Source of the DNA: Woodsholea maritima DSM 17123
Lineage (GTDB): Bacteria > Pseudomonadota > Alphaproteobacteria > Caulobacterales > Maricaulaceae
NCBI RefSeq assembly: GCF_000382325.1
Contig: NZ_KB908056.1
Span: 124,001-188,000 of the forward strand
Direction: 5' to 3'
Length of the DNA stretch: 64,000 nt
Numbering within the stretch: position 1 is the stretch's first letter; each line of letters opens with the position of its first letter. Made by a program: the position numbers and the translations under genes. Shown here piece by piece: positions 52,075-54,239 of the stretch. The notes under the pieces are model-generated. The model was not told the origin of the DNA and ran no database searches. It saw nothing but the letters and a program-made list of their open reading frames with translations.

Positions 52075-52107
52075 AACCCCCGCAAGCGCGCCTTGCGGGG
52101 GTTTTTT
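52075..52107 (+). terminator. Intrinsic terminator after the dipeptidyl-peptidase gene
   Basis: AACCCCCGCAAG-CGCGC-CTTGCGGGGGTT followed by TTTT, 24 bases past the stop. It isolates the next operon from upstream transcription. Confidence 0.92.
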
Positions 52108-52180: not shown

Positions 52181-52195
52181 TTAAGTTTCACTTAA
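52181..52195. promoter_or_regulatory. CtrA-type full site upstream of the proteasome-like operon
   Basis: TTAA-GTTTCAC-TTAA matches TTAA-N7-TTAA exactly and is itself symmetric (GTTAAG/CTTAAC). It lies 100 bases upstream of the ATG at 52296 and just past the preceding terminator, a suitable promoter position. Confidence 0.55.
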
Positions 52196-52295
52196 CATAG
52201 GACCTCCGGCCCGCTATGGTCTGGGGGATAGATGACATAAAATTCGGGCGCGATGTGGGGACATCATCGCCAAAGGTATGAGGGGGAAGCCATCC

Positions 52296-53534
52296 ATGAC
52301 GTCTGAAGTGATGATCATGAACCGACAGGCCATCGCGCTGGCCGCAGATAGTGCCGTGACCTATGGCGGGGGCACCGACAGCGTTGTGACGTTGGAGGCG
52401 GAGAAAATCCTCACCCTCTCACCCACGATCGCCTTGATGGTGTATTCGCGCGGTGATGTGCTGGGCCGCTCCTGGTCACAGATTGCCCATGCCTTCCGCA
52501 AGGAATATGGCGATCAAGACTATGCCAGCGTCGAAGAGTGCGCCGCGACCTTCTTTGCTTTCATCGACAATAATCGCCGCCTTTTCCCGGAAGACGACGA
52601 GCGCGAAGAGTTTGAAGATCTGTTGCGCGCGGCCTTCTCCACCGTGCTCGATTATGCCAAAGGCCTGCGCAATTATCCCCATTCGCCCTACGCCTCCGAT
52701 GAAAGCGCGTTCGAAGCCGCCCTCGATATGTATCGCCGCATGCTGGCGCTGGATGAAGGCGGGGAGGTGCGCGACACCTTGGCCGTTTTTGAAGATTTCA
52801 CTCAAGAAGACTTTAATGGCCTTTATGGCGCGCTCATTGACGCCCTGATCATCGAGGCGCTAGGCATCTATGGCGAAGATGAAGCGGTCCGCGCCAAGCT
52901 TTATGACTTTGCCTATATGCTGATGGTCAAACCGGCCTTTTTGGAAACCTATGCCGGTCTCGTCTTTGCCGGCTTTGGTCAGGACGATATCTTCCCGGTA
53001 TACTCCCATTATTATGCCTCCATCCTGGTCAATGGCGTGATGAAACGCGGCCATGATGAAACCATCCATGTCGCCGTCGATGATGGGCCCAGCGCCTTCG
53101 TGCGCACCTTCGCCCAGGCCGACATGACCCACGCCTTCTTGCGCGGTGTTCATCCCACCATGTTCGATCTGATGATCTCGTTGAACATGCGCGCCAATGA
53201 AATTGCGGCCGAAGTGGCGTTGACCGAAGCGGGCCTCTCGCGCGATCAAGTCGTCGAGGTCATGGGCCGGATGCAGGATCATGTGCTGCCCGAGCTCTCC
53301 ATGGAGTTTATTCGAGTCAGCCAAGCCGTTTCACAAGAAGAATTTATCGACCCCTTCATCAAGGTCGTGTCGGCATCGGGTAAGCGCCAAATCGCGGAAA
53401 CCGCCAAATCACTGGTTGATCTTAACATCCTCAAAACCAATCTCCATATGGTACAGACCGGTGTGGGCGGGGATGTCGATGTCGTGATGATCTCGCGCAC
53501 GCACGGGGTCGAATGGTTTGCACAAAAGTCCTAA
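52296..53534 (+). CDS. Uncharacterised proteasome-type Ntn-hydrolase-like protein
   Basis: About 412 residues. The ATG at 52296 has AGGGGGA eight bases upstream; an ATG at 52278 has none. After removal of Met the chain starts with Thr, and counting from it gives Asp17 in ALAADSAVT and Lys36 in EAEKILTLSP, close to Thr1-Asp17-Lys33 of proteasome beta subunits. ALMVYSRGD then sits where beta subunits have their glycine turn. The middle (about 70-370) is acidic and helical with no motif I know; the end, VGGDVDVVMISRTHGVEW, again looks like a beta-strand core. Proteasome beta subunits are about 200-240 residues, so this is much larger. No ATPase partner is adjacent. I know similar proteins only as hypothetical. 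The hydrolase fold is inference. Confidence 0.6.
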   Translation: MTSEVMIMNRQAIALAADSAVTYGGGTDSVVTLEAEKILTLSPTIALMVYSRGDVLGRSWSQIAHAFRKEYGDQDYASVEECAATFFAFIDNNRRLFPEDDEREEFEDLLRAAFSTVLDYAKGLRNYPHSPYASDESAFEAALDMYRRMLALDEGGEVRDTLAVFEDFTQEDFNGLYGALIDALIIEALGIYGEDEAVRAKLYDFAYMLMVKPAFLETYAGLVFAGFGQDDIFPVYSHYYASILVNGVMKRGHDETIHVAVDDGPSAFVRTFAQADMTHAFLRGVHPTMFDLMISLNMRANEIAAEVALTEAGLSRDQVVEVMGRMQDHVLPELSMEFIRVSQAVSQEEFIDPFIKVVSASGKRQIAETAKSLVDLNILKTNLHMVQTGVGGDVDVVMISRTHGVEWFAQKS

Positions 53535-53555
53535 TGGATGAAAAGGTTTAGTCCC

Positions 53556-54188
53556 ATGACTACGGACAATACCCGCTTGAATATCGAACGCGCGCGTGAA
53601 GCGCTTCACCGCGCCAAACCCTCCAGCTTGGCCGCCATTCGCTCACCGCGTCCGGTGGATCTGCGCCAATTGGATGCTGAGCAAACCCAGCGCGCCAAAA
53701 TTGACCTGCACGCCGATGCCTTCCGCCACACTTTGCGGGAAAAACTGGGCGTCCATACTTTCAATGGCGATTATCAACCGATGATGACGCCCACGGCGCG
53801 CGCATTGATGAATGATCCCATGTGCGATGCGGATGTGTGTATGCCGCGAAGCCTGTCCTCTTTAATGCCGCAACCGGCCCCCGCCCCGCGCCTGGATCGC
53901 GGTGAGGACGCACAGATTGATATCAACGCGGTTCTTGAAACCGGGGTCGCCCTGCGTGACGCTCAAGGCGATGACGCCGCCATCACGCCAGAGATCGAGA
54001 TCACACCCGAAGAAGAGCCCGTAAGTACCGAAGCTCATGCGGAGGTTACGCCCTCCCCCTCTATCGCGACGCACGACAAGGCAATCGAAAGCGACGTTGA
54101 GATCGAGAGCCAAGAAGCGCCTTTGACTGAAATGAGCCCGGCCTCTGAAGCGCCGAAGAAGCGCAAAAAATTCCTCGGCCTTTTCTAA
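53556..54188 (+). CDS. Acidic protein of unknown function, partner of the Ntn-hydrolase-like gene
   Basis: About 210 residues from the ATG at 53556, with AAAAGG nine bases upstream, 21 bases after the previous stop. Not recognised. The N-terminal 105 residues are mixed and probably folded, with helix RLNIERAREALHR, then LHADAFRHTLREKLGVHTF, and a Cys pair in MCDADVCMP. The next 95 residues are Pro/Glu/Asp/Ala-rich and probably disordered. It ends in a basic-hydrophobic tag, PKKRKKFLGLF. No signal peptide, so cytoplasmic. A strong terminator follows. Confidence 0.7.
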   Translation: MTTDNTRLNIERAREALHRAKPSSLAAIRSPRPVDLRQLDAEQTQRAKIDLHADAFRHTLREKLGVHTFNGDYQPMMTPTARALMNDPMCDADVCMPRSLSSLMPQPAPAPRLDRGEDAQIDINAVLETGVALRDAQGDDAAITPEIEITPEEEPVSTEAHAEVTPSPSIATHDKAIESDVEIESQEAPLTEMSPASEAPKKRKKFLGLF

Positions 54189-54203: not shown

Positions 54204-54239
54204 CAAAAAAAGCGGTCTCCGGCGAGACCGCTTTTTTTG
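54204..54239. terminator. Bidirectional terminator between the Ntn operon and the fRMsr gene
   Basis: AGCGGTCTC-CGGC-GAGACCGCT is a 9-bp stem flanked by seven A before and seven T after, so it works on both strands between convergent genes. Confidence 0.93.

Follow-up and report, generated by a model that had tools for sequence, protein, structure and literature searches.

A threonine Ntn-hydrolase candidate of the PMI-4 type in Woodsholea maritima is paired with a small gene coding for a basic-hydrophobic C-terminal tail

Introduction

Which kind of enzyme is encoded at positions 52296–53534 of a 64,000-nucleotide stretch of the Woodsholea maritima DSM 17123 genome (NZ_KB908056.1, positions 124,001 to 188,000; hereafter the window), and what does it work with? 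The original prediction, made from the letters of this DNA, had proposed an oversized threonine Ntn-hydrolase of the proteasome type. The analysis presented here points to a threonine Ntn-hydrolase of the PMI-4 type with a dedicated, probably membrane-tethering adaptor encoded just downstream. We consider this statement as a whole likely; the exact role of the adaptor, perhaps that of a tether, is put forward with less confidence.

Results

Start codon and active centre

The hydrolase gene (52296..53534, forward strand), delimited by its open reading frame, its homologues and the predicted fold, codes for 412 amino acids, and a genome search found a single copy in its own genome. The protein reads MTSEVMIMNRQAIALAADSAVTYGGG...AEKILTLSP; counted without Met, Thr is residue 1, Asp residue 17 (in AADS) and Lys residue 36 (in KILTLSP), exactly as the original prediction had read them. 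The codons, all on the forward strand, are those of Thr2 (52299..52301, the expected N-terminal nucleophile Thr1), Asp18 (52347..52349, Asp17 in Thr1 numbering) and Lys37 (52404..52406), which aligns with proteasome Lys33 in the profile alignment to archaeal beta subunits. The original prediction had staked its case on the conservation of these three residues, and they were the same in 77/77 rows of alignment A2, where M1, T2, D18, S19, T22 and K37 were all invariant. The same six residues were invariant in alignment A1, made of 18 rows retrieved by tblastn or with the phrog_5990 profile. Because the scans searched for peptide patterns spanning the ADS motif (and, in the viral scan, a VGG motif), the conservation of D18 and S19 in scanned loci is partly due to selection, and Asp18 is therefore best judged on A1. 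Near the C-terminus, Val-Gly-Gly (residues 390–392, 53463..53471, forward strand) was aligned by the A2 profile with Ser-Gly-Gly of archaeal beta subunits. The Ser169 equivalent, assigned by eye, was Val390 in 77/77 A2 rows, and the Gly47 equivalent, also placed by eye, was Gly in 44 of the 77 rows, Asn in 23, Ser in 6 (the window included), Asp in 3 and Ala in 1.

An alternative longer in-frame start lies at 52278, and a G-rich, Shine-Dalgarno-like stretch was read from the sequence at 52280–52287, ahead of the 52296 start. The codon 5' of Thr was a start codon in 160/160 best-scoring loci of two scans (142 ATG, 9 GTG, 9 TTG), every one of which matches from query residue 1, and 64 of the 160 had a further in-frame start upstream. 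Since the variation at this codon stays within the set of start codons, translation probably begins there, and Thr would come first once Met is removed. Removal of Met by methionine aminopeptidase is established chemistry.

Predicted fold and helical insertions

AlphaFold2, run on A2, gave a hydrolase model with a pLDDT of 92.3 and a pTM of 0.89. A Foldseek search with this model yielded 10 matches at E ≤ 0.001, all of them proteasome entries; the superpositions of these ten best matches were poor (TM by target 0.39–0.48, rmsd 17–21 Å), presumably because of the insertions described below. VIA-align, used as a second look at Foldseek's own candidates, ranked yeast beta5 (5d0v_Y, T1C) highest (Z 15.4, 3.7 Å, 186 residues aligned to a 212-residue chain), on a par with Anbu 5lox (Z 15.2, 3.5 Å, 199 aligned), and the first residues that it aligned were residue 2 of the model and residue 1 of the chain. 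The model and the proteasome matches agree on the proteasome-type Ntn-hydrolase fold that had been proposed, and the Ntn sandwich, on which the original prediction had hung its structural claim, appeared as a predicted proteasome beta fold throughout the AlphaFold2, Foldseek and VIA-align analyses. The best viral structure match was a siphovirus entry annotated as a proteasome beta subunit (E=4e-4). In a sequence search with the A2 profile, archaeal beta subunits came out on top (E=0.006), their Thr1, Lys33 and GG motif lining up with those of the family, and PF00227 matched 7/77 members of A2 at E ≤ 5 (best 2.4e-4).

The secondary structure of the model, from which the helix names are inferred, shows two helical insertions on the forward strand. 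The first (approximately residues 91–215, 52566..52940; net charge -16) comes after the H1/H2 pair (helices 60–71 and 79–90) and holds helices 99–126, 135–151 and 170–194, and the second (approximately residues 285–360, 53148..53375) belongs to the H3/H4 part, with helices within 287–360 after helix 276–283. The C-terminus of the model consists of strands 395–400 and 404–409. The original prediction of an oversized subunit with an extra helical part was right as to size and helical character, but the extra residues form two insertions rather than one added domain. Greater acidity of the insertion in the lineage that carries the partner gene described below was considered and rejected, the median being -9 in its 29 rows and -9.5 in 48 rows elsewhere.

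Family membership and distribution

No Pfam family matched the hydrolase at E ≤ 1, and none in NCBIfam or PADLOC at E ≤ 5; it matched phrog_5990, a phage family of unknown function, over residues 1–411 (E=1.3e-51). Fuchs, Alva and Lupas (2021; PMC8665760) described 22 new proteasome homologues, among them PMI-4 (representative HDY66466.1), which has insertions after H1/H2 and between H3/H4. Its 501 sequences (at 90% identity) are assigned there to many bacterial phyla, to Euryarchaeota and to phages. Insertions at these two sites are also given for PMI-3, which carries no phage mark in Table 1 of that paper. The hydrolase family has a proteasome-like core with Thr1/Asp17/Lys33, carries both insertions at these sites and is found across several bacterial phyla as well as phages, and thus, matched by published description, fits PMI-4; the candidate that the original prediction had called uncharacterised is accordingly not of an unknown family. 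According to the same paper, genomic context and co-occurrence gave no hint of function for the new homologues, and among the open-access papers listed in our searches we found no functional or experimental study of PMI-4.

Relatives were thinly spread. The phrog_5990 profile placed the hydrolase in 20/61 related genomes, the A2 profile matched 16/289 genomes of the class (one by a 31-residue match, E=6.5e-4) and 10/398 genomes of the phylum, and tblastn found relatives in 13/50,697 phage records and 9/72,556 plasmid records. A scan of genome contigs confirmed at least 367 relatives and a scan of viral contigs gave 170; since the best 80 of each were kept, the kept sets represent the closest relatives, and the viral set holds near copies. 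Viral contigs scanned with the single hydrolase protein gave no relative, whereas the alignment query did find relatives. The copies in phages (L022, L023, L026, L027 and L028) were variously placed: behind the lysin as the final gene (Javan85), late in the satellite Javan421, beside lysis genes or among head genes; in several they looked cargo-like. In genomes of the same order (L220, L221, L222) the hydrolase has a third, divergent form and is accompanied by a small adjacent ORF that has no C-terminal tail, and the tail was likewise absent from the small ORF adjacent to the divergent same-order copies L020, L021 and L222.

A small partner gene follows the hydrolase gene

Absent from the original prediction was the adjacent partner gene (53538..54188, forward strand), recognized from the gene table and the partner profiles, which begins 3 nt past the hydrolase stop and codes for 216 amino acids; a start at 53556 gives the N-terminus of its relatives. 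It contains a CDADVC motif (C96–C101, 53823..53840, forward strand), both Cys of which were invariant in 16/16 Maricaulaceae-type partners. The pairing was already apparent in the first neighbour table, which picked the longest non-overlapping ORFs irrespective of tails and showed a small same-strand gene family at +1 in 31 Parvularculaceae-type and 12 Maricaulaceae-type loci. Among the best-scoring loci, partner profiles built for three clades (A3, A4, A5) matched just downstream of the hydrolase in 72/75 loci of this alphaproteobacterial lineage and in 0/86 other loci, which were mostly viral contigs. Fifty-nine of the 75 lineage loci had served to build the profiles, and 13 of the remaining 16 matched. 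The partner alignments, for which the ORF picker was biased to basic tails, included 27/40 Parvularculaceae-type partners in A5 and 22/25 in-frame fusions in A6; L053, L076 and L078 had been left out because the wrong ORF was picked, and the profiles matched all three. At L103, L105 and L109 no partner profile matched; each of these loci has a small ORF on the same strand that ends in its own basic tail. In a survey of the class, with genomes taken regardless of a partner, L202, L206, L210 and L211 had a tailed partner by script and L207 by eye; L201 and L203 also had one but are repeats of L060 and L103.

A same-strand ORF of 90 amino acids followed the hydrolase in 72/72 lineage loci and 3/78 other loci. 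As such an ORF is common at other ORF ends (339/745 in lineage loci, 323/602 in the others), the pairing rests on the partner profiles and the tails. Pfam contained no family for the window partner and gave only one weak stray match in each of seven families for 27 Parvularculaceae-type partners, NCBIfam gave only one weak stray match for 16 Maricaulaceae-type partners, and PDB sequences yielded no convincing match. Homology of the whole partner between clades was not supported, as only the tail matches, and this only between two of the three clades. Within the reach of these searches, the pairing is new. In a predicted fold of an in-frame hydrolase-partner read-through, the outline of the hydrolase was unchanged and the partner was mostly disordered, with its helices reaching block pLDDT values of 53–72 and its tail at about 36–41; no docking of the partner was seen in this fused one-chain monomer model, which is silent on subunit interfaces and membranes.

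The partner ends in a basic-hydrophobic tail

The partner of the window ends in KKRKKFLGLF (54156..54185, forward strand), a tail identified by partner alignments, hhalign and tail patterns. Parvularculaceae tails often read KKKRFGIF or RKKFLGLF, those of the third clade RRSWLGRLFGR and similar, and the partner at the hydrolase locus of G012 (L032) has the variant KKRKLFGLF. With patterns that, like the WxxRKxYF pattern used below, were written after the sequences had been seen, a strict tail was found in 50/72 partners (0/16 in the third clade) and 0/885 other ORFs of at least 100 amino acids, and a loose one in 68/72 partners and 31/885 other ORFs. A same-strand ORF with a basic-hydrophobic tail stood at the hydrolase stop in 68/72 lineage loci and 0/78 others with 700 nt of room, and such tails occurred at 14/745 other ORF ends in lineage loci and at 16/602 in the others. 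The 72 partners of the pattern test are the 75 minus three wrong picks and the 72 roomy loci are the 75 minus three short ones, so that the two sets differ.

When two partner families were compared by hhalign, the match was limited to the tail (last 13 columns, E=1.4e-5, probability 80%); the tail of the third clade gave no hhalign match (E 0.11 and 0.05). Searched against the whole 3.1 Mb genome, a degenerate DNA pattern coding for FLG[LI]F ends gave a single match, at the end of the partner, and its reversed control likewise gave one. In 41 genomes of the family the FLG[LI]F pattern gave 12 matches, nine of which were partner ends by position, in eight genomes with a hydrolase place by phrog_5990 and in G705. 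Of the remaining matches, two were not such tails and one ends an acyl-CoA ligase-like ORF (named by reading) in G003, a genome with no hydrolase match; this ORF also ends in the strict tail. The tails of other clades extend 2–4 residues beyond the hydrophobic part (RLFGR, RLFKGR, FGLFRRK), which suits an amphipathic membrane motif more than an end of the HslU type. The partner tail may resemble the membrane helix of FtsA.

Partner and C-terminal extension largely exclude each other

A C-terminal extension of the hydrolase with the pattern WxxRKxYF was present in 86/86 non-lineage members (48 rows after thinning to 80% identity) and in 0/74 lineage members among the best-scoring loci, and the hydrolase of the window lacks it. 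In 29 further loci, some of which repeat earlier ones (L201, L203, and phage records close to IMG/VR ones), 7/7 partner-bearing hydrolases were devoid of the extension and 16/22 partnerless ones had it; L008, L020, L021, L215, L219 and L222 had neither. The rule of exclusion is strong, yet not absolute. All 29 lineage rows grouped together in a quick, unrooted tree (SH-aLRT 99). In an unrooted tree with more distant rows the partner label needed 3 changes, with L207 labelled partnerless, although its downstream frame, by eye, does hold a partner (KKKRGFFGWLFGR). To judge from these trees, much of the trade between partner and extension reflects one or a few clade-level events.

Genomic neighbourhood

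A terminator-like hairpin of the upstream peptidase gene (52075..52103, forward strand) precedes the pair (4 found in the scan of the region, 2.5 expected in shuffles). A promoter-like site ahead of the operon (52192..52220, forward strand, 9/12 matches) was at chance level (2 found, 1.3 expected). A perfect hairpin with a 15-bp stem and the loop CGGC (54205..54238), terminator-like on both strands, follows the partner; it was read directly and is absent from the scan list. Because of the hairpin before the pair and the perfect hairpin after it, hydrolase and partner look like one transcript.

By Pfam, the neighbours code for an ABC-F-like ATPase (3.7 kb upstream of the hydrolase), a SIMPL-domain protein, a DPP IV-type peptidase, GAF and GGDEF-EAL proteins and a second SIMPL-domain protein. 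The two SIMPL-domain genes (PF04402; 48768–49580 and 57291–58127) flank the hydrolase operon and have no known link to it. No AAA+ family was found among the five nearest annotated neighbours scanned in Pfam, in keeping with the original prediction that no AAA ATPase is adjacent. That prediction had also set the protein apart from HslV, and the genome indeed has a separate HslV-like PF00227 gene (G000:C2:107067-107579), directly followed by an HslU-like gene that ends in DLSKFIL (both named by reading). A second, weak PF00227 match in the genome (G000:C3:306023-306199, 14 bits, E=0.047, below cut-off) lies in a 286-aa frame. A tie to the cell cycle, also suggested originally, was borne out by no analysis here. 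Apart from the partner, no single family in the gene table was common to the neighbourhoods of all three clades; the other recurrent neighbours were clade-specific and, named by reading, look like housekeeping genes.

On the rhizobial plasmids L024, L029, L200, L196 and L197 a related hydrolase gene lies about 1–3 kb from a pair of genes for multiubiquitin and an E1-like ThiF protein, with a ClpP-type gene in four of the five loci. This proximity was seen in 5/7 annotated alphaproteobacterial plasmid loci viewed; since several of the rhizobial plasmids look related, it may be one event. Outside rhizobia, multiubiquitin/ThiF baits gave 0 matches in 27 loci (13 of them under 5 kb); the same baits matched in 5/5 rhizobial loci.

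Discussion

Proposed mode of action

We propose that translation starts at the Met before Thr1, that methionine aminopeptidase removes this Met, and that Thr1, Asp17 and the Lys33 equivalent (Lys36) would then attack an amide bond of a protein or peptide. In the alphaproteobacterial lineage, the hydrolase would be made from a two-gene operon with the small, largely disordered partner, the N-terminal part of which may bind the hydrolase or its substrate, while the basic-hydrophobic C-terminal tail would anchor the complex, most likely at the inner face of the membrane. Taken by itself, the role of membrane tether or adaptor for the partner is our tentative choice, at a little less than an even chance, and some role other than those discussed here is improbable.

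Two further readings concern the partner. Its C-terminus might enter a pocket of an oligomeric hydrolase and switch it on as the tail of HslU does with HslV, only with no need for ATP. HslV is activated by peptides from the C-terminus of HslU, for instance EDLSRFIL (PMC4106860 and PMC6429459). The partner tails KKRFGIF and KKFLGLF resemble the DLSKFIL end of the genome's own HslU-like protein, and the five scanned neighbours hold no AAA+ family. A docking end needs its carboxylate, however, and the tails of other clades run 2–4 residues past the hydrophobic part; nor did the fused model show docking, but that model is of a monomer, and pockets of this sort are formed between subunits. We regard activation by docking as unlikely. 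It is slightly less probable still that the partner is the dedicated substrate of the hydrolase, to be cut or ligated by an enzyme that is connectase-like rather than a general protease. The one-to-one pairing of the genes and the predicted disorder of the partner would suit a substrate, and connectase, a member of the family, is a specific ligase (PMC8665760); yet the one element that matches between two clades is the extreme C-terminus, which would be an odd cleavage site, and the best-scoring loci outside the lineage gave 0/86 matches to the partner profiles. The tether or adaptor remains the role that we prefer. A broader arrangement, in which a two-component, ATP-independent proteasome-like system has the WxxRKxYF extension in cis in the phage type, as opposed to a separate, fast-evolving tailed partner that places or switches on the hydrolase in the alphaproteobacterial lineage, is conceivable but rather doubtful.

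As to the hydrolase itself, Val at the Ser169 equivalent in 77/77 rows and the variable Gly47 equivalent are what might be expected of an inactive pseudo-enzyme or pure scaffold that retains the fold. Against this, every row of A1 and A2, whether from phages or from bacteria, keeps Thr1, Asp17 and Lys, and a start codon sits just before Thr in 160/160 best loci, which leaves a pseudo-enzyme very improbable, and an active threonine hydrolase is the reading that we retain. Its origin is a separate matter, compatible with our best explanation: the presence of the hydrolase in phages (such as Javan85), satellite phages (such as Javan421) and IMG/VR contigs would suit a cargo of mobile elements, for defence or lysogenic conversion, later domesticated in the lineage, but PADLOC gave no match, positions in phages vary and the trees are unrooted, so we hold this origin to be plausible at somewhat less than even chance.

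A partner whose profile matches 72/75 best loci of one lineage provides an experimental handle, two proteins to be studied together, and a concrete lead on what such PMI-4-type enzymes work with. The pair could show how a proteasome-like enzyme works with no neighbouring ATPase and how bacterial genomes came to use a hydrolase that phages also carry.

Comparison with known systems

With the beta subunit of the 20S proteasome the hydrolase has in common the core fold, the Thr1/Asp17/Lys33 pattern and the GG motif; it differs in being twice as long, in having no AAA+ family among the neighbours scanned, in matching 0 Pfam families where 20S beta subunits score above the PF00227 cut-off, and in lacking a propeptide, for its start codon abuts Thr in 160/160 best loci, whereas in 20S beta subunits autocleavage of a propeptide exposes Thr. 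The HslV/HslU system shares the fold and, in the partner, a hydrophobic C-terminal tail, but HslV is a compact subunit with no insertions, compared with 412 aa and two insertions here, and HslU is an AAA+ unfoldase, whereas the partner of the hydrolase is small and mostly disordered. Anbu has the fold in common (Z 15.2) and differs by its long C-terminal helix H5, in place of which the hydrolase model ends in strands and has insertions. Connectase, as described in PMC8665760, likewise combines a proteasome-like fold with insertions but has no H1/H2, which the hydrolase model does have (helices 60–71 and 79–90). The closest likeness is to PMI-4, with which the hydrolase shares the catalytic residues, the two insertion sites and the spread over bacterial phyla and phages; to PMI-4 as published, which came with no informative context, the present analysis adds a partner gene and the absence of the C-terminal extension.
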